This document shows, in pieces, positions 8,274-18,528 of a DNA stretch of 64,000 nucleotides (positions are counted from its first letter, which is position 1; the number at the start of each line of letters is the position of its first letter). The DNA lies in contig CP075365.1 of the NCBI GenBank assembly GCA_019454125.1, forward strand, positions 2,040,218 through 2,104,217. The letters run 5' to 3'. Below the pieces are notes generated by a model, which saw only the letters and a program-made list of their open reading frames with translations, made no database searches and had not been told where the DNA came from. The translations under genes were made by a program, and so were the position numbers. Source of the stretch: Fimbriimonadaceae bacterium (GTDB lineage Bacteria; Armatimonadota; Fimbriimonadia; Fimbriimonadales; Fimbriimonadaceae).

Positions 8274-9632
8274 ATGTCGCGGCAAGAAACGTCAAAAAAT
8301 TTCCTTAGCTCGCATTGGCGGCTCGTGGTCGTGGCCGTCCTCTACCTCGCCGTCTGCGTCGCCATCATGAGCGTGACCCCGTACCGGACGGGCGGACTCC
8401 TGCGCTACCAGCGCGGACCGGACGGCTTTCCCGCTCGCATCGCCGACATCGGCGCGCCCGACGAGCGGCAGCACGCCAACTACATCCGCGTGCTTCTCGA
8501 TGGCAAACCCTTCCCCGTCCTTAAGCCCGGCGACCCCGACCTCTATGAGTCATACCAAGCCCACCAGCCTCCGCTCTACTATCTCGTCGCGGCCGGCTGG
8601 TGCCGGGCTCTTGGCCTTGACCCCACCGCCCCTTCGGCAGGGGGAGGAGTCCGCACCCTGAATGTCTTGGTCGGGCTCCTGACCTTGGCGGGGCTCGCGG
8701 CCGGCGTGCGGTGGGCGGGAGGAAGCGCGGCCATGCAAGCTTCGGCCGCAGTCGCCATGCTCGTCCCCATGGTCGCCGCGCTTCACGCGGCGGTGGGCAA
8801 CGACCCGCTGCTGTATGCCCTGCTAACGTGGTCGGTAGCGTTGGCGGTGAAGGGATGTGTACATGGTTGGCCGTTAAAGCTTGGCATCTTGATCGGAGTC
8901 CTTGGCGGGCTCGCCCTGCTCACGAAGACGACGGCCCTGGCCCTCTTCCCCGTTCTCGCCGTCGCCATAGCCCTCGCTTGGCGGAGCGGCCAAAGGCAAC
9001 CCGCGGGTTGGGCGGCGGCGCTGGCCCTGCCCGCGCTGATCGCCTCGCCGTGGATGGTCCGCAACACCCAGCTTTACGGCGACCCCTTTGCGCTCAAAGC
9101 CTTCAACGAGGCCTTCGTCGGTTCGCCGCAGGCCTCGCTCTTCATCGAGGGGCTGGGCCCCCTCACCTATTGGACGCAGATGGTCGGCTGGTGGACCTGG
9201 CGCAGCATAGTCGGCGCCTTCGGCTACATGGACATCTTCATCCTGGAGACGGCGGGGCCCAACGCATCGGGCGCCTTCTACAACCTGGCGGGGCTCTTGG
9301 CGGCGGCGACGGTCGGCGTCGGCGTCTGGTCGCTGGCCTCCCGGGAAAACAAGGCGGAGGGTGGTCGGGTCCTCCTAGTGCTCGGAGCGACGCTCATGGC
9401 CGTGGTCGCCCTCCTTTTTGTGCGGTTCAACCTGCAGTACTTCCAGGCTCAGGCCCGTTACCTCTATCCCGCGATCGCGGGGTTCGCGTGGATCGGCGCC
9501 GCCGGGGCCGCCCGCATGGCCGGGGACCGGCGGGAGCTGGCATGGGTCGTGCCCGCCCTCTTCTGGCTGCTGGTGGACGGCCTCGCCTGGTCCGCCATGG
9601 CGACAGGATTCCCAATTCGCGCCGAACCTTAA
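8274..9632 (+). CDS. polytopic membrane protein, GT39/DUF2142-like glycosyltransferase
   Basis: 452 residues starting at ATG 8274. After a first membrane helix (VVVAVLYLAVCVAIMSV) comes a luminal/periplasmic loop with APDERQHANYIRVLLDG and YQAHQPPLYYLVAAG. The PDE..H..Y and HQPPLYY motifs are typical of DUF2142 and GT-C (ArnT/PMT-like) enzymes. About ten further hydrophobic segments follow, with WMVRNTQLYGDPF between helices, another GT39 hallmark. By family it would transfer a sugar from a polyprenyl-phosphate donor at the outer face of the membrane. Acceptor and donor are unknown. A separate reading frame starts about 35 bp later. Confidence 0.75.
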   Translation: MSRQETSKNFLSSHWRLVVVAVLYLAVCVAIMSVTPYRTGGLLRYQRGPDGFPARIADIGAPDERQHANYIRVLLDGKPFPVLKPGDPDLYESYQAHQPPLYYLVAAGWCRALGLDPTAPSAGGGVRTLNVLVGLLTLAGLAAGVRWAGGSAAMQASAAVAMLVPMVAALHAAVGNDPLLYALLTWSVALAVKGCVHGWPLKLGILIGVLGGLALLTKTTALALFPVLAVAIALAWRSGQRQPAGWAAALALPALIASPWMVRNTQLYGDPFALKAFNEAFVGSPQASLFIEGLGPLTYWTQMVGWWTWRSIVGAFGYMDIFILETAGPNASGAFYNLAGLLAAATVGVGVWSLASRENKAEGGRVLLVLGATLMAVVALLFVRFNLQYFQAQARYLYPAIAGFAWIGAAGAARMAGDRRELAWVVPALFWLLVDGLAWSAMATGFPIRAEP

Positions 9633-9666
9633 ACGCGAAACCCCTCTTCGAGCGTCTTGGGAGATA

Positions 9667-11820
9667 GTGCTCGCGCCCCTCACACTCGTGCTGACCCTGG
9701 CACCCGCCCTCCGGGCCCAGGAAGCCAAGTCCGTCACCCTGCACTTGACCGCACGCCTGGAGCAGGTGGCCGCCAAAATCTCCGAGAAGGCAGGGGTCAA
9801 GTTGTCCGTAGACACCGCCCTAAAGGACCGCATCGTGCTCGTGGACGTGGACAGCGTCCCCTACGAAGAGCTTGTGCGGCGGCTTGGGCTGGCCTGTGAC
9901 GCGAAGCTGGAAGAGCGCGCCGGGGCGAGCTGGTTGGCCCGCGACCCCGAGAAAGAGGCGGCCTCAGAAAAGCGGGGGCAGAAGGACCGGCTCGAATCCA
10001 TCGAGAGGACGCGGGAACGGCTGCGGTCCATTGCAGAGGCCGAGTACACGGCCAGCAACGTTGCCAACTACATCCGGGCGGGGGGCCAAGCGCCGAGCCG
10101 CCTAGACGCCACGACCATGCTTTTCGGCTCCGGCGGCGCAAACGACGGCACGCCCCTGGGCCGGGCCGGGGCAAAGATCTTTCTCTCCATTCCGCCCGAG
10201 GAAATCGCCGCGATGAAGAGCGGCGAGCGCACCGTCTATTCGACCCGCCCCACGAAGATGCAGCGGCCGATAGACCCGAAGGCAGGCGACGTCCTCAAGG
10301 GCTATACCGAGGACTTGGCCACCGCCGCAGAAGGCGTGAAGCTGGCTGGCAACGAGGCGAACCCCCAGGCGCGGTCCGCGTTCCAGACTACCGAGGAAGC
10401 GGCCAAGGCGGTAAAGGTGCTCGCGGTGATGAGCCACCACCTCTTCTTCGGCATGGGGGTGCTCATCTGCGAGGTGAAGGCGCTCGCCCCGACCGGCCAA
10501 GTGGTCGACACCAACACGTTCGCGATCTGGGCAAGCCCCTTGCTCGCCGGCACTATGGACAGTGGGCTCCAGGCCTTCGAGGGCGAAAGCAAGATTGTCC
10601 TGAGCGAGCAGTCCCAGAAGTACCTCGAAAGCATGTCCTCGTTCGTCCGTGAGCCGGACGGGCCCGAGACGAACCCAGCCGCCCGCGACGAGACCCTGGT
10701 GCGGAGCGTCGACACGGTCGAGCCCCTTTCGCTCGTGGCGGCGGACGTGATCCGCGGCCTCTATGGGGGCGAAGGCAAGGGGGTTGTAGCGGAGATCCCT
10801 GACCAGATCCACCTGGTCGTGATGATCGCGGGAGGTGCCAAGGGCATCGACCCGAAGCGCGTCCGAAAGTTTATCTTCGACAACGTCCTGCACCCGGTCG
10901 AGGAGACCGACCAAAGCGTGGTCCTCACCCCGATCGAAGCGAGCGAGGCCCGAGACCAAGCCGTCGACAGAAAGGCCCTCGCGAACCTGGTCGAGCGGTA
11001 TCCGACGCCGGGATCGGTGACGTTGGAGGACGCCGCCAACTACACCGCAAACCGCAAGTCGCGCGGCTCTGGGAACGCGATCGAGCTCGTCACGCTGGGA
11101 TCGCTGGGCATCGACCTGGTGATGAACCAGCAGTTCGGGGACTCGGGGGCGGCTGCCTCTTTCCTGGACTTTCTCGGCCACCTGCCCCTTCCGCAACGGC
11201 AGACCCTCGCCGCGGGCGGGACGCTCCCCTATAAGACCCAGCTGCAGGACCAGCAGCGGCGCCTGCGCGAGATCGTCTACTCCGCGTCGGGCAAGCTCGA
11301 GCAGCGCTCGACCGAAGCAGCGCCGCACGCACCGGACGGACTCGAAGAGGACTGGATCCCCTATGGGGCGCAGGTCGAGCCGACTGAGGCCCTCCCCGAC
11401 GGCATACCTGCGGACGCCTTCATCCGTCTTACGACCAAGAACGAGCCCTTGCTCTATACCGTCGACCCGAAGACGGGGGCCTGGGGGGCCATCGATATCT
11501 CGACCCTGGCATCGCTGATCGCCCAGAAGGAGGCCGCGCCAAAGGCGGAGAAGTCAGAGTACGTCGACCCGCCGAACCGGTTCCGCATCGGGGGGCACCG
11601 CACCTACCTCATCGAGTTCGTTCTCGGCGCCGACCTTTTCAGTTCCATGCCGTATGAAGAGGACGTCAAGCCGACCACCGAGAAAGAATTCACATTGAAG
11701 ACCCTGCCGCCCGACATCCTGAAGCGCTTGCAGGAGTCGGTCAAACGCGCCCGCGAGGAACTCCGAGAAATGGAGGAAGAGGGCGGCGGCAACTTTACGG
11801 TCCCCGACGACGGAGGTTAG
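9667..11820 (+). CDS. large exported protein with N-terminal STN-like domain, function unknown
   Basis: About 717 residues. The start is uncertain: the best choice is GTG 9667, just after GGGAG (short spacing), with another GTG at 9688; both lead into a hydrophobic leader ending ALRAQ. Residues about 24-95 (VTLHLTARLEQVAAKISEKA, VDVDSVPYEELVRRLGLACD) match the beta-alpha-beta pattern of the secretin/TonB short N-terminal (STN) domain. The remaining 600 residues contain no motif I recognise, though they are hydrophilic with a charged coiled-coil tail (ESVKRAREELREMEEE). It sits immediately upstream of an ECF sigma factor and a second STN-like protein, so a role in the same envelope process is likely. 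Confidence 0.7.
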   Translation: MLAPLTLVLTLAPALRAQEAKSVTLHLTARLEQVAAKISEKAGVKLSVDTALKDRIVLVDVDSVPYEELVRRLGLACDAKLEERAGASWLARDPEKEAASEKRGQKDRLESIERTRERLRSIAEAEYTASNVANYIRAGGQAPSRLDATTMLFGSGGANDGTPLGRAGAKIFLSIPPEEIAAMKSGERTVYSTRPTKMQRPIDPKAGDVLKGYTEDLATAAEGVKLAGNEANPQARSAFQTTEEAAKAVKVLAVMSHHLFFGMGVLICEVKALAPTGQVVDTNTFAIWASPLLAGTMDSGLQAFEGESKIVLSEQSQKYLESMSSFVREPDGPETNPAARDETLVRSVDTVEPLSLVAADVIRGLYGGEGKGVVAEIPDQIHLVVMIAGGAKGIDPKRVRKFIFDNVLHPVEETDQSVVLTPIEASEARDQAVDRKALANLVERYPTPGSVTLEDAANYTANRKSRGSGNAIELVTLGSLGIDLVMNQQFGDSGAAASFLDFLGHLPLPQRQTLAAGGTLPYKTQLQDQQRRLREIVYSASGKLEQRSTEAAPHAPDGLEEDWIPYGAQVEPTEALPDGIPADAFIRLTTKNEPLLYTVDPKTGAWGAIDISTLASLIAQKEAAPKAEKSEYVDPPNRFRIGGHRTYLIEFVLGADLFSSMPYEEDVKPTTEKEFTLKTLPPDILKRLQESVKRAREELREMEEEGGGNFTVPDDGG

Positions 11821-11862: not shown

Positions 11863-12435
11863 GTGGTGTGCTCCCTGTACGAACCATTGGAAACTCCGCA
11901 CTTTGACGAAGACGCCCGCTTGGTCGAGCAGGCGGCCAAGGGCGAAGGCAGAGCGTTCCAAAGGCTCTACGAGCGGCACTTCAACCGGGTGTTCGCTGTC
12001 TGTCGCGGTGTTCTCCTGGACACCGACGACGCCCACGACGCGGCACAGGAAACATTTACGTTAGTCTATCGAAACTTGCACAAATTCGACCAGAGAGCCC
12101 GCTTTTCCACCTGGCTCTTCAGAATCGCTTTGAACCGGGCGGTCCAGGAGGCCCGGCGCTTGAAGTACCGGCGCAAAGCCCAGCCGCTGGACGCGGCGCT
12201 CTCCCTTGCGGCCCCACCTGTGGAGCGGCACGGCGTCGACCCGGACCCCAAGGTGGACGCCTGCCTGAACGCAATGAGCCCCGCCGACCGCGCCGTCCTC
12301 ACGTTTTTTTACTGGGAGGACCTCTCTTTGCAGGAAATCGCGGAAGTCCTTGAGTGCTCTCCTAACGCGGCCAAGACGCGGCTCTTCCGGGCGCGTGAGC
12401 GATTCCGCGAGCTATATAGAGGAGAGGGGCAATGA
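11863..12435 (+). CDS. ECF-family RNA polymerase sigma factor
   Basis: 190 residues. Region 2 reads FQRLYERHFNRVFAVCRGV then DAHDAAQETFTLVYRNLHKF and FSTWLFRIALN. Region 4 reads SPADRAVLTFFYWEDLSLQE then IAEVLECSPNAAKTRLFRAR, a clear helix-turn-helix. The start is taken at GTG 11863; no strong ribosome-binding site is visible, and 11866 is an alternative. The 3' end overlaps the next gene as ATGA, the usual layout for a sigma factor and its anti-sigma. It likely directs transcription in response to an envelope signal sensed by that partner. Confidence 0.9.
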   Translation: MVCSLYEPLETPHFDEDARLVEQAAKGEGRAFQRLYERHFNRVFAVCRGVLLDTDDAHDAAQETFTLVYRNLHKFDQRARFSTWLFRIALNRAVQEARRLKYRRKAQPLDAALSLAAPPVERHGVDPDPKVDACLNAMSPADRAVLTFFYWEDLSLQEIAEVLECSPNAAKTRLFRARERFRELYRGEGQ

Positions 12436-13235
12436 AAGCGCTTCTGCCGGAGGTGAGCGAGATGATCTGGCGCGTCGTGGACTCTGGCGACGCGGCCGTG
12501 ATCAACGAGTTCAAGCTGCGCTACCCGGAACTCGCCGACGAGGTGGAAGCCCGGATCGCGATGGGCCGGCTGATCCGCGACTCGAGGCCGGCGGCCGTGG
12601 CCGGAGTCTTCGTACCGAGCCTCCAGGTCGTGAGGAAGCCCTCGGTGCCGAGGTGGGCGCTGGTGGCGGCGGTCGTTTCGCTGGCGATGCTGATCATCGC
12701 CTCGATTATCTTCTTGAGACAGGAGCCCTCCGAGCCGAGCCTCTACGACCAGCGCGACAAGAGCCTGACGAAGGAGCAGGAAGCCTTGGTCCGCCAGAAG
12801 CGCAAGTTCAGCAAGGAGAAGCAGAAGGGCGGCGACAGCGGGCACGGCGACCCCAACGGGGCGGGCTCCGGAAGCGGGCCCGGTCCGGGCCTGCCGTCGG
12901 GAACGACCGGCTCATTGGCACCGCCCCTGCAAAGGCCGGTCACGCTGGAGTTCGACACCGCGAAGCTCACCAGCGTGATCTCCTCGATCGCCTGCCAGTC
13001 CGGCCTGAACATCGAAGTCGCCCCCCTCTTCCAGGACCAGGTCGTCGACGTGCACTATAGCGGCATCCCCGCCCAGAACGTGCTTGACGAGCTTGGTGAG
13101 CAGTTTGCTTTTACGGCTTTGCCGCAGGACGACCGAACGGTCCTGATCGTCCCGGCCCGAGAGGTGGACCAAAGCCCGACCCTGGTGGATCCAGAACCGG
13201 GCTCACTGGGCTCGGAACCCCGTATAAGGGACTAG
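12432..13235 (+). CDS. single-pass membrane protein with C-terminal STN-like domain, putative anti-sigma factor
   Basis: 267 residues, start ATG overlapping the sigma factor stop. Residues 1-74 are a small cytoplasmic helical region (VSEMIWRVVDSGDAAVINEF), followed by one membrane helix at about 76-96 (ALVAAVVSLAMLIIASIIFL). A charged then Gly/Ser/Pro-rich linker spans about 100-168. Residues about 170-246 form an STN-like domain (VTLEFDTAKLTSVISSIACQ, VHYSGIPAQNVLDELGEQF). The position next to an ECF sigma gene and the one-helix topology suggest an anti-sigma, with the STN-like domain as its external sensor. No canonical zinc anti-sigma HxxxCxxC motif is present, so the role is inference. 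Confidence 0.7.
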   Translation: MKALLPEVSEMIWRVVDSGDAAVINEFKLRYPELADEVEARIAMGRLIRDSRPAAVAGVFVPSLQVVRKPSVPRWALVAAVVSLAMLIIASIIFLRQEPSEPSLYDQRDKSLTKEQEALVRQKRKFSKEKQKGGDSGHGDPNGAGSGSGPGPGLPSGTTGSLAPPLQRPVTLEFDTAKLTSVISSIACQSGLNIEVAPLFQDQVVDVHYSGIPAQNVLDELGEQFAFTALPQDDRTVLIVPAREVDQSPTLVDPEPGSLGSEPRIRD

Positions 13236-13295
13236 GACCACGCAAACGATCTGGCACGCTTCGTGCGTCAAACTGCGAATTCCTCAGGATCTTCC

Positions 13296-14105
<810 letters not shown>

Positions 14106-14177
14106 GAAGAATCGCCAAGACGGTCAAACACGTCGCTATACTGAGGGTAGGACTTAAATCCTGCCCTCAGGTGGCCG

Positions 14178-14906
14178 ATGACGACACCGGAACGAGTCTC
14201 TAACATCCGCGAAGAGCATGCGCAGAAAGCGCTTCTCGCCCTTGTCCCCGGGATCGTGCTGGACATTTTGGGCGCAGTCCTGATTTCCTACGGGCGGGAG
14301 TTCACCGCCCTGGGCTATGTGCTCCTCGTGATCGGGTTCGTGGCGACGGTTTACGGCGCCGTCCAACTCATGACCATGCGCAAGGTGCGCGGCCATGTCG
14401 TCGAGTGCCCGTTCTGCCACACGAAGAACGAGTTCCAAGAGGTGCCCGAAGGGGACGTGCGCTGCGAGGGGTGCCACCGGAGCATCCCGATCGTAGGGGG
14501 CCAGGTCGTGGCCATCCACCAGGTCCGTTGCGGCTTCTGCAACCATCTGAACTATTACAGCGACAAGAGCACAGGGCTTATCTGCGAAGAGTGCAACCGC
14601 GAAGTCCCGATCGCGCTCGCGGACGGGACGTCCACAAAGTCTCGCGCCGCGTTCGAGTCCTACACGGTCCATGACGACGAGCGCCCCTACGACCTCTTGC
14701 TCGCGGAACCCGGCAACAAGGATGAAGAACTCATCTCCTGCCTTCAGAAGATGCTGGCGCTGAACCGGAACCAAGTCAAGCAGTTGTTGGAGGACACTCC
14801 CGTCTTGCTGCTGAGTGGGATCCCCCGGCGAAAGGCGGAGATGCTAAAGGCCCAAATCGACATGCACCACGGCTTGGCCGAATACCGCGTTTCCCAGCAA
14901 GTTTAA
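14178..14906 (+). CDS. membrane-anchored double zinc-ribbon protein with L7/L12 C-terminal-like domain
   Basis: 242 residues. Two membrane helices (about 20-40 and 46-66) are followed by two zinc ribbons: CPFCHTKNEF with CEGC (residues about 77-99), and CGFCNHLNYY with CEEC (about 120-145). The C-terminal region, about 170-238, aligns by eye with the ribosomal L7/L12 C-terminal/ClpS-like fold: YDLLLAEPGNKDEELISCLQ, then LNRNQVKQLLEDTPVLLLSG, then KAEMLKAQIDMHHGLAEYRV. I know no characterised protein with this order. A TATACT hexamer at 14137-14142 may be its -10 element. Confidence 0.7.
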   Translation: MTTPERVSNIREEHAQKALLALVPGIVLDILGAVLISYGREFTALGYVLLVIGFVATVYGAVQLMTMRKVRGHVVECPFCHTKNEFQEVPEGDVRCEGCHRSIPIVGGQVVAIHQVRCGFCNHLNYYSDKSTGLICEECNREVPIALADGTSTKSRAAFESYTVHDDERPYDLLLAEPGNKDEELISCLQKMLALNRNQVKQLLEDTPVLLLSGIPRRKAEMLKAQIDMHHGLAEYRVSQQV

Positions 14907-14929: not shown

Positions 14930-15019
14930 TCCTAGGGTATCTTATGCGCTCGCGGTTGCCGGAGCTTTTCCCCAGCCGCGATGAGCCTTTTTGGAGAAGC
15001 CTTGCCAAGGACAGCAAAC

Positions 15020-18000
15020 ATGCCAACGCTCGCACGACTCCCGAGACGCCTTTTGGGGGGAGCCATGCTCCTCGCACCGGTCGCCGCACTGGCCTCAGAA
15101 GCTAACGTCCGCCTGAGTTTTCGCCCGCAAGACCAGATTTACCTGATCGTCTCGCTGGTCATCGGCATCATTTCGATCATCGCCGCCTTAGCCTTCCGCT
15201 CGCATGTCATTGCCCAATCGCCGGGCAATGAAAAGATGCAGGAAGTCGGCAAAGCGATCCACGAGGGGGCCCTCGCCTACCTTGGACAACAGTTCCGACT
15301 TATGGTCGTGTTCATCGTCGTCCTCGCGATCGGGCTATACGCGCTTTACCAAGGCGACTACGGCGCGACGGTCGCCACCTTCGTCGCCGTGTGTTTCGTC
15401 CTCGGCGTCTTGGCCTCTTACGTCGCGGGCTTCGTCGGCATGGACATGGCCGTCCGCGCGAACATGCGGGCCGCCGCCGCCGCCCTCACGAGCAACAAAC
15501 GGAGCCTTGAAGTCGCGTTCCGCGCTGGCGCCGTCGCCGGCCTCATGACGGTCGGCATGGGCTTGATCGGCGCCACGCTGATCCTCTGGCTCGGCCAGAG
15601 CGACGCGATGAAGTACCTCATCGGCTTCGGTTTCGGCGGCTCCTTGGCCGCCCTTTTCATGCGCGTCGGCGGCGGTATCTATACCAAAGCGGCCGACGTC
15701 GGCGCCGACCTGGTCGGTAAGGTCGAGGCGGGCATCCCCGAGGACGACCCGCGAAACCCGGCCGTCATCGCCGACAACGTCGGCGATAACGTCGGCGACT
15801 GCGCCGGCATGGCGGCCGACGTCTTCGAGTCTTACGAAGTCACCCTCGTTTCCGCGATCGTCCTGGGCGCCGCCACGGCCGTCCTCTTCGACACCGAGAC
15901 GTGGATGCGGCTCGTCCTTTTCGCCCTCATGGCGCGCGGCGTCGGCATCATCGCTTCGATCGTCGGGGTTCTGATGGTGAAGGGCAGCGACAACGTAGAC
16001 ACCGACCCGCTGAAGCCGATCACCTTCGGTTTCCAGGGTTCGGCGCTCCTCGCAGCCGTCCTCACATTCGGCCTGGCCTACATGATGCTGGGCGGCGTCC
16101 CGAGCGTCGGCGGGCCGGTCGTCACCAACCTGGTGACCACCCGGGCCCAGAAGGAGTTCGACGAGATTTCCCGCATCAAGGACATTCAAAAGGAGCTGGC
16201 CGTCAGCAAGAACGTGCCGCTCTACGAAGTCACCGCCGCGGACATCGAGAACGACAAGCGCGCGCAAGAACTCTTCCCCGTCAAGGCCGAGCTCCAGCAG
16301 GCGGTCTCTCGAGCGCTCTTCACGCCTGAAGACCAGATCAAGGCGCCCGAGCCGACCGAGGGCTTTTCGCCTGTCGACTGGTCGGACACCAAGCGCCCGC
16401 TCCTGACCTACGCCACCACCGAGCAGCAGCGGCCGGACAACCCGGCCCAAGCACCGCCGGAGCCGACGACGATGTCGCTCGCCGACCGCCTTTCGAAGGG
16501 CGACATGCGGTACTACAAGCTCTCGGTCGAGTTCGACGTCCCGGCTGCGCCGGGCAGCGACGCCAAGCCCGAGAAGCAGACCCAGACCTTCTACTACGGC
16601 CCCACCCGCAAGGACGACTTCGACAAGCTGGTCAAGCAGGCGCAGGACCAAGGGCAGAAGATCAAGGTCGAGGGCGACTTCCCGATCAAGTACATGACGA
16701 CCCGGACGGGCAAGCTTGTCGTCGGCATCGTCGACAACAAGAGCGAGGTGCCGATCCACAAGGTCGCCGGCCCTCCGATCACCTACTACGAAGCCCCGGT
16801 CGCCAAGATCAAGGAGCTGCAGGAAAAGCAGAAGGCGAGCCCGCAGACCCAGGTGCCGATGCCCCAGATGCAGACGGCCGAGGTCGTCGGGGTCCGAGAG
16901 GTGCCCGTGCCGTACTTCAAGTTCTTCGGCTGCGTCTTCTTCGGGATCATCATGGCGTTCCTCTTTGAGCGCCTGACCGACTACTACGTCTCGCTCCACA
17001 AGAAGCCGGTGCGCGAAGTTGCTGCGGTCGCCACCGCCGGCCCCGCCCCGATGATCATCCAGGGCATCGCCCTCGGAAAGGAATCGGCCGTGATGAGCCT
17101 CTTCGCGATCGTCGCGTGTCTCATCGCCCCGCTTCTCATCTTCCCCGCCAGCGAGTACGGCAGCTACATCCTGTCGTTCTACGGCATCGCGTTGGTCGGC
17201 CTCGGCCTCCTGACGACGACCGGCTACATCCTGGCGATGGACACCTTCGGCCCCATCAGCGACAACGCCCAGGGCGTGTTCGAGATGTCGGGCGCCGGAG
17301 CGGACAACCCGACCGCCAGCAAGGGCATCCAGCGGCTGGATGCGGCGGGCAACACGACCAAGGCTCTCACCAAGGGCTTCGCGATCGCCACTGCGGTCGT
17401 CGCGGCGGTCGCGCTGTTCCACGCCTTCGTCGAATCCGCCATGCTCAACGGCATCGGCATGCGCCTGGACGTGCCCGAGATCTTCCTTGGGCTCCTCATC
17501 GGCGGCGCCGCCCCCTACCTGTTCGCCGCCTTCTCGATCAACGCGGTCGGCCGAGCGGCCTTCCAGCTGATCAACGAGGTGCGCAGGCAGTTCCGAAGCG
17601 ATCCGGGCATCATGGCCGGGACGTCGAAGCCGGACTACGCACGGTGCGTGGCGATCGTCACCTCCGCGGCGCAGAAGGAGCTTCTCGGCCCAGGCATCCT
17701 CGCGATCGCCCTGCCCGTCATGGTCGCCTTCGGCTTCTCGATCGGGAAGGCCCCGACCGAAATCGGAGGCCAGCTCTATAACCTGACCGGCGCCCAGGCG
17801 CTCGGCGGCTTCCTCGCCGGCACCATCCTCAGCGGCCAGCTCCTGGCCGTGATGCTCGCCAACTCTGGCGGTATCTGGGACAACGCGAAGAAGCTCATCG
17901 AGGACGGCCTCCACGGGGGCAAAGGGACGGAAGCCCACAAGGCCGGCGTCGTCTGCGACACGGTCGGCGACCCGTTCAAGGACACCGCGGGCCCTGCCCT

Positions 18001-18199
18001 CAACCCGCTGATCAAGGTCATGAACTTGATCGCGCTGCTCCTCGTGCCGGCGATCATCGCGCCGCTCAAGCAAGAGGTGCTCATCGTGATCACCGTCGTC
18101 TCCGCGATCTTCCTGGTCATCGCGTTCGCGATGTCCAAGCGGAGTTCGCTGGGCAGCGAGATGGCCGCGATCGAGAGCTCCACGCCCCCCAGCGCTTAA
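15020..18199 (+). CDS. hppA: membrane-bound proton-translocating pyrophosphatase with large insertion domain
   Basis: About 1,059 residues versus roughly 660-770 for the family. The start chosen is ATG 15020 with AAGGA 9 nt before it; ATG 14981 is in frame but lacks a site. The substrate signature is intact (DVGADLVGKVEAGIPEDDPR, then DNVGDNVGDCAGMAAD, near residues 226-265). GNTTKALTKG near residue 777 has Lys and Thr at the positions that mark potassium-independent H+-PPases. C-terminal KAGVVCDTVGDPFKDTAGPA is also intact. The extra length is one soluble block of about 270 residues (bases 16,100-16,910) between the helix ending AYMMLGG and the helix FFGCVFFGIIMAFLFERL. The enzyme should couple pyrophosphate hydrolysis to proton export. 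Confidence 0.95.
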   Translation: MPTLARLPRRLLGGAMLLAPVAALASEANVRLSFRPQDQIYLIVSLVIGIISIIAALAFRSHVIAQSPGNEKMQEVGKAIHEGALAYLGQQFRLMVVFIVVLAIGLYALYQGDYGATVATFVAVCFVLGVLASYVAGFVGMDMAVRANMRAAAAALTSNKRSLEVAFRAGAVAGLMTVGMGLIGATLILWLGQSDAMKYLIGFGFGGSLAALFMRVGGGIYTKAADVGADLVGKVEAGIPEDDPRNPAVIADNVGDNVGDCAGMAADVFESYEVTLVSAIVLGAATAVLFDTETWMRLVLFALMARGVGIIASIVGVLMVKGSDNVDTDPLKPITFGFQGSALLAAVLTFGLAYMMLGGVPSVGGPVVTNLVTTRAQKEFDEISRIKDIQKELAVSKNVPLYEVTAADIENDKRAQELFPVKAELQQAVSRALFTPEDQIKAPEPTEGFSPVDWSDTKRPLLTYATTEQQRPDNPAQAPPEPTTMSLADRLSKGDMRYYKLSVEFDVPAAPGSDAKPEKQTQTFYYGPTRKDDFDKLVKQAQDQGQKIKVEGDFPIKYMTTRTGKLVVGIVDNKSEVPIHKVAGPPITYYEAPVAKIKELQEKQKASPQTQVPMPQMQTAEVVGVREVPVPYFKFFGCVFFGIIMAFLFERLTDYYVSLHKKPVREVAAVATAGPAPMIIQGIALGKESAVMSLFAIVACLIAPLLIFPASEYGSYILSFYGIALVGLGLLTTTGYILAMDTFGPISDNAQGVFEMSGAGADNPTASKGIQRLDAAGNTTKALTKGFAIATAVVAAVALFHAFVESAMLNGIGMRLDVPEIFLGLLIGGAAPYLFAAFSINAVGRAAFQLINEVRRQFRSDPGIMAGTSKPDYARCVAIVTSAAQKELLGPGILAIALPVMVAFGFSIGKAPTEIGGQLYNLTGAQALGGFLAGTILSGQLLAVMLANSGGIWDNAKKLIEDGLHGGKGTEAHKAGVVCDTVGDPFKDTAGPALNPLIKVMNLIALLLVPAIIAPLKQEVLIVITVVSAIFLVIAFAMSKRSSLGSEMAAIESSTPPSA

Positions 18200-18285: not shown

Positions 18286-18528
18286 ATGGCCGATCCACAA
18301 GATGTCCAGGCGACGAAAGCGCTACGGAGCGAACTCGGACGGCGGTTCGTGGACACCACCCAGGCCGACGTCCGCGTGATGCACGGCGTGGCCTACATCC
18401 GAGGCGTTGTGAAGCCCATCAAGGGCGGGAACCCGGACGTCAAGGCCGCGCTCGAAATGGTGGCGAAGTCCATGCGCCAGAAGGGGCTGGTCCGCGACGT
18501 CGTCATCGATTGCGCCTTCCGAACCTGA
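18286..18528 (+). CDS. small hypothetical protein (80 aa), possibly BON-like
   Basis: 80 residues, isolated between the hppA terminator and the TlpA-like gene. The central segment VRVMHGVAYIRGVVKPIKGG followed by LVRDVVIDCAFRT gives a beta-hairpin plus helix pattern reminiscent of BON domains, but no Gly-Xaa-Val motif series is complete. There is no signal peptide or membrane helix. It has no ribosome-binding site but a TACAAT hexamer 5 nt before the ATG, consistent with a leaderless message. Confidence 0.6.
   Translation: MADPQDVQATKALRSELGRRFVDTTQADVRVMHGVAYIRGVVKPIKGGNPDVKAALEMVAKSMRQKGLVRDVVIDCAFRT

Follow-up and report, generated by a model that had tools for sequence, protein, structure and literature searches.

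The locus described here raises the question of why a bacterial membrane protein should end in a domain resembling the C-terminal domain (CTD) of the ribosomal protein L7/L12, and what such a domain might do away from the ribosome. The gene lies in a stretch of 64,000 nucleotides from a Fimbriimonadaceae bacterium (contig CP075365.1), hereafter called the window. The original prediction, made from the sequence alone, had described two membrane helices, two zinc ribbons and a terminal L7/L12-like domain, and had proposed that the protein might tether ribosomal or proteolytic partners to the membrane. The ORF is present exactly as it had been described, with an ATG start; its parts and the neighbouring genes are collected in Table 1. 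No paper on this architecture was found in the open-access literature.

Table 1. Features of the locus, with positions in the window
Feature	Positions	Strand	Basis
Whole ORF, 242 aa: membrane hairpin, double zinc ribbon and L12-CTD-like domain	14178..14906	+	
Helix 7-37, holding predicted membrane helix 1	14196..14288	+	AF2; membrane placement judged from sequence
Helix 40-69, holding predicted membrane helix 2	14295..14384	+	AF2; membrane placement judged from sequence
Putative zinc ribbon 1, C77/C80/C96/C99	14406..14474	+	four invariant Cys; zinc binding presumed
Putative zinc ribbon 2, C118/C121/C136/C139	14529..14594	+	four invariant Cys; zinc binding presumed
Predicted L7/L12-CTD-like domain, residues 170-237	14685..14888	+	AF2, structure comparison, hhalign
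Most conserved 13-mer of the CTD, residues 189-201	14742..14780	+	overlaps presumed bL12 factor-binding face
TATACT, -10-like hexamer before the gene	14137..14142	+	enrichment upstream in related loci
ECF sigma factor gene, linked neighbour	11863..12435	+	Pfam; linkage
Probable FecR-like anti-sigma factor	12432..13235	+	AF2; STN/secretin N0/anti-sigma matches
Prepilin-like gene	13263..14105	+	Pfam N_methyl; 16/56 loci
H+-translocating pyrophosphatase HppA, linked neighbour	14981..18199	+	Pfam H_PPase

The AF2 model of the protein, computed on an alignment of 50 sequences (mean pLDDT 92.2, pTM 0.62), lays out the two helices, two small beta units and then the CTD, with pLDDT values of 61-75 in the linker blocks (141-170) and of 94-97 in the CTD blocks. 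The CTD itself has the order strand-helix-helix-strand-helix-strand (E171-177, H182-193, H197-205, E209-215, H217-229, E233-238). Both CxxC...CxxC units of a Cys4 double zinc ribbon were found, and all eight cysteines are invariant in three alignments of 30/30, 50/50 and 24/24 rows, sets that share genomes and of which the 50-row one was fetched partly with a pattern covering C118/C121. Pfam ribbon matches are weak and below cut-off, such as that of DZR_2 over the second unit (residues 117-145, E 0.0029); the cysteine pattern suggests that the ribbons bind zinc. Counts of charged residues around the helices are equivocal as to the side of the membrane (mean K/R versus D/E of 2.84/3.58 in residues 1-17, 0.84/0.38 in the turn and 2.10/0.98 after helix 2); the ribbons and the CTD probably lie on the cytosolic side. 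The overall architecture given in the original prediction is thus borne out by the AF2 model and the eight invariant cysteines.

The CTD is predicted with high confidence to adopt the L7/L12-CTD fold. Its model superimposes on 1ctf, the L7/L12 CTD, with Z 13.0 and an rmsd of 0.9 A over 68/68 residues at 24% identity, while a Foldseek comparison with the L7/L12 CTD gave a TM-score by target of 0.94, and the six best Foldseek matches were all bL12 (E 2.2e-4 to 7e-4). In the structure ranking 1ctf comes first and other bL12 structures next, with ClpS following from Z 10.7 down; the best ClpS superposition has an rmsd of 1.9 A over 70 residues. The L7/L12 likeness of the last 70 residues, earlier drawn by eye, is therefore upheld, and the structure prediction returned no fold foreign to both L7/L12 and ClpS. 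ClpS as the closer relative of the CTD was rejected as less likely: it is structurally farther than L12, and hhalign against local ClpS-like proteins gave probabilities of 20.2% and 0.3%, a weak exclusion because that set is small (12 rows) and atypical. The genome itself carries two tandem ClpS-like genes (L171 and G000:C1:2503044-2503536) that diverge from ordinary ClpS, and such tandem genes recur in some of the 31 searched genomes.

Relatives of the gene were gathered by a contig scan, which listed 62 loci, labelled Armatimonadetes/Fimbriimonadales (including Fimbriimonadaceae) or unspecifically, plus one (L075) whose archaeal label likely reflects a mislabelled bin. The near alignment holds 50 of the 63 possible sequences (the window and the 62 loci), with partial and near-duplicate ones omitted, and a further reference alignment holds 39 of 45, five loci without a start motif having been skipped beforehand. 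The comparison with the Pfam profile PF00542, proposed at the outset as a check, gave a weak score for the window protein and stronger ones for part of its relatives. The window protein scores below the 25.9-bit cut-off both as a whole (E 0.059, 14.1 bits) and with the CTD alone (E 0.005, 17.5 bits). Among the relatives, E <= 0.01 is reached in 27 of the 50 near rows (best 1.5e-7) and, in a CTD set of mostly distant members, in 14 of 21 rows (best 2e-9); of 31 genomes, 10 pass the curated cut-off at this gene. Two sequences that also exceed the cut-off, G013:C227 and G007:C6, belong to other loci. When the family CTD was aligned by hhalign with the CTDs of 16 bL12 proteins from the same order, the probability was 97.7% (E 1.6e-12), and a further hhalign comparison for PF00542-type homology gave 94.0%; in a control with 50 column-shuffled bL12 profiles no probability rose above 50%, and the top-scoring profile reached 1.2%. 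As the PF00542 score of the window protein is weak, the sequence case for L12 homology rests on the relatives; on the predicted fold and these profiles together, we accept the CTD as a homologue of the bL12 C-terminal domain.

Membership in the ribosomal bL12 family itself was considered and rejected, because the N-terminal domain is missing and the factor site is altered (see below). The dimerisation and L10-binding domain of bL12 is absent, residues 1-165 being taken up by the membrane helices, zinc ribbons and linker, and TIGR00855 aligns only to positions 54-116 of its 125, below cut-off.

The protein belongs to a conserved lineage family of bacterial membrane proteins. A match at E <= 0.001 is present in 60/61 searched genomes of the window's order, and with a broad family profile at E <= 1e-30 the gene is found in 147 of 291 genomes of the phylum (a hand count from the listing): 109/113 in the order (families f1-f5), 10/12 in f12, 16/17 in f13, 2/2 in f14 and 10/10 in f19. 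The matches listed for other families lie at about 1e-9 to 1e-14, and those whose place is shown cover the CTD part only and look bL12-like. Two small genomes of the genus g29 (1.5 Mb, 97% complete) are without the gene, and a tblastn search of plasmid records with a distant family member gave no match. In the genus g21, all four fetched genes (L172-L175) end just after the second ribbon: they lack the CTD while keeping the helices, the eight cysteines and an adjacent sigma/anti-sigma pair. The CTD is hence a detachable module, and the hairpin with the zinc ribbons forms the core.

In the window, and usually in its near relatives, the gene follows an ECF sigma factor gene and a second gene, whose start in the window overlaps the sigma stop. 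The product of the latter has a cytosolic N-terminus, one membrane helix and a periplasmic STN-like domain (AF2 pLDDT 76.8); neither the whole product nor its cytosolic N-terminus has a Pfam match, and its model matches secretin N0 domains, the putative anti-sigma factor BDI_1681 (Z 10.6) and the anti-sigma protein PupR (Z 9.4). Of the 56 near loci with enough sequence, 45 have the pair within 2 kb upstream of the gene and in its orientation. Of the 11 near loci without a nearby pair, ten still extend into the CTD and one (L100) ends at a contig edge. Downstream, HppA begins within 700 nt in 31 of 55 near loci. The window's HppA matches the Pfam H_PPase profile in two stretches and therefore seems to hold a long insert before residue 642. 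An 80-aa ORF near HppA (18286-18528) is conserved in 16 scan loci, and a long ORF upstream of the sigma gene (9418-11820) is matched at 22-27% identity in 4 scan loci; neither has a Pfam match.

Farther afield the gene order changes. Among 40 fetched loci of other families and g21, the four from g21 are the only ones with the sigma pair beside the gene, and the linkage was not found in the fetched loci of f2-f5, f12-f14 and f19. HppA lies downstream in 3 of 4 f5 loci (L180-L182) and was not detected in the fourth (L122). One of these loci also encodes the ribosome-silencing factor RsfS upstream of the gene (L182:4788-5309), and the other three hold ORFs related to it at a like distance. In f19 (five loci, one genus) the directly upstream genes are all of one family, which in the two tested by Pfam is SHOCT-like with a Toastrack (DUF4097) domain; Toastrack proteins are proposed, in a passage of PMC11237479, to be sub-membrane signalling platforms of envelope stress. 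Judged by gene order, envelope stress would thus be a recurring but not uniform theme among the neighbours.

The first alternative to weigh is that the protein is a third component of ECF signalling, which binds the adjacent sigma factor, the anti-sigma factor or RNA polymerase and so holds its target at the membrane. The gene order conserved in 45 of the 56 loci, retained even where the CTD is lost, would suit such a role, as would the precedent in a passage of a review (PMC7939475) that free mitochondrial MRPL12, with its L12 CTD, binds directly to the RNA polymerase of mitochondria, a point that the same passage records as disputed. However, the pair is unlinked in other families, the gene has a -10-like element of its own, and the linkage survives the loss of the CTD, so that the CTD, at least, is not what ties the gene to the sigma pair. 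We consider this alternative unlikely.

The -10-like element, TATACT, occurs within 120 nt upstream of the gene in 31 of 61 loci versus 39 of 5000 windows of 120 nt drawn at random from these loci, an enrichment that is only suggestive because the loci are related; in the 31 loci it sits 16-56 nt before the start codon. A promoter scan of the window found no full promoter match or promoter-like site, and a terminator scan gave two weak candidates on the opposite strand, a lower number than shuffled sequences produced. An inverted repeat (14141-14170; two 15-nt arms, 87% complementary, no spacer) lies directly before the start codon and overlaps TATACT. As the element suggests independent transcription of the gene, a shared order does not have to reflect cotranscription. 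The idea that it forms a simple operon together with the sigma pair is likewise weakened by the families without the pair, by the upstream TATACT and by the dissociation of CTD and pair, which separate both ways: the CTD is lost with the pair kept in g21, and kept elsewhere without the pair.

What the CTD might bind can be approached through its conservation, measured on 30 rows obtained by tblastn in relatives; these were chosen over the 50-row alignment because the loci of the latter were fetched with ribbon and CTD patterns (QV[RQ]CG[FY]C and NRNQVK). Residues 189-201 have the highest mean identity of any 13-mer of the CTD (0.915) and overlap the last part of helix 4, the loop that follows and the first part of helix 5, which we take to be the region of bL12 that contacts translation factors. 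The contact positions are presumably K65, V66, I69, K70, R73, G79, L80, K81, E82 and K84 of bL12; their equivalents average 0.82 in conservation versus 0.66 for the rest of the CTD, a modest effect in that 2.8% of random sets reach 0.82 when the relatedness of the rows is ignored. The bL12 residue set on helices 4 and 5 is not itself conserved in the family: K65 is mostly replaced by T/S, V66 by E/D, K70 mostly by S, and K81 and E82 mostly by N and Q, while R73, G79 and L80 correspond to Q190, N196 and R197, which are invariant in 30/30 relatives where the 16 same-order bL12 CTDs carry R/K, G and L. Only the equivalents of I69 and K84 are largely retained. A conserved face with altered contact residues suggests a different partner: the CTD surface appears to be constrained, its docking face retained but re-specified.

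These replacements bear on a second alternative, that the protein is a membrane-bound mimic of the ribosomal stalk whose CTD has retained binding to translational GTPases or ribosome machinery, gathering these at the membrane. Its fold is nearly identical to that of the bL12 CTD, the I69 and K84 equivalents persist, and members in other families are more bL12-like, for instance in having L at position L80 and in reaching PF00542 E values as low as 2e-9. However, with K65, K70, R73, G79, L80, K81 and E82 replaced, the usual translation GTPases are unlikely partners; the Q, N and R that stand in for three of these are invariant in the 30 rows, and the genome also encodes an ordinary bL12. We hold this alternative to be distinctly improbable. 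Of the tethering role originally proposed, docking at the membrane may fairly be inferred, because the most conserved stretch of the CTD lies at the presumed bL12 factor site, whereas ribosomal or proteolytic partners are not supported: seven of the presumed contact positions speak against translation factors, and the case for a ClpS-like role is weaker still.

A third alternative makes the protein a redox- or zinc-responsive membrane regulator, in which the ribbons serve as sensors of thiol or metal state, with the CTD a mere accessory. It would be in keeping with the invariance of the eight cysteines and with the g21 genes, which retain the ribbons without the CTD. It would also accord with a glutaredoxin-family gene directly downstream in 12/19 fetched f12-f14 loci (Pfam-checked in L108 and L115) and a thioredoxin-domain gene near 28 of the 62 scan loci. 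However, Cys4 ribbons are usually structural and the glutaredoxin neighbour is lineage-specific, and we give this possibility little credence. A ClpS-type protease adaptor delivering membrane-proximal substrates, for which the shared superfamily fold speaks, is highly improbable given the closer structural match to L12, the poor hhalign result and the separate ClpS-like genes in the same genome.

The explanation that we favour, if only tentatively, is that of an adaptor anchored in the membrane, whose docking port is of the L12 type but has changed in specificity, perhaps in envelope-stress control. A two-helix membrane protein would hold the double zinc ribbon and the L12-fold domain, probably on the cytosolic side, with the membrane hairpin and the ribbons as the core that positions a detachable port. 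The CTD would bind a partner protein through its bL12-type helix-loop-helix face, and the changed side chains on that face suggest a partner other than the factors of bL12. In the window's relatives the protein would probably serve envelope homeostasis or stress control, given the adjoining ECF sigma/FecR-like anti-sigma pair and proton-pumping pyrophosphatase. A bolder scenario, which we regard as doubtful, is that a duplicated bL12 CTD was transferred from ribosome to membrane in an ancestor of part of the phylum and gained a new partner, yielding a membrane 'stalk' under envelope control that recruits some component of the gene-expression machinery (RNA polymerase, a sigma factor or a GTPase).

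The L7/L12 CTD is among the best studied recruitment domains in translation; according to a title in the reference list of PMC7395135, a conserved region of it is the binding site of IF2, EF-Tu, EF-G and RF3. A membrane family that keeps the L12 fold and docking face while altering the contacts would show reuse of the domain outside the ribosome, and the invariant Q190/N196/R197 patch offers a ready handle for finding the partner.

Comparison with known systems places the locus as follows. The neighbouring genes recall FecI/FecR systems in that an ECF sigma gene overlaps one whose product has a single membrane helix and an STN-like domain in the periplasm, but the cytosolic N-terminus of the probable anti-sigma factor differs in having no Pfam match. 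The Toastrack/SHOCT envelope-stress modules, which are PSP partners, include a gene of the kind found directly upstream in f19, whereas none was seen beside the gene in the window by Pfam searches of the neighbours. ClpS (PF02617) has a superfamily fold in common with the CTD, but is structurally farther than L12 and gives a weak profile match. The bL12 CTD (PF00542) shares the fold and the order of elements without a gap over 68 residues, is linked by profile homology through the relatives and, at the presumed positions, has the same face conserved; the family differs from it in the replaced factor-site residues, with the window sequence falling below the Pfam cut-off, and in that the N-terminal dimerisation domain of bL12 gives way to two predicted membrane helices and two putative zinc ribbons.
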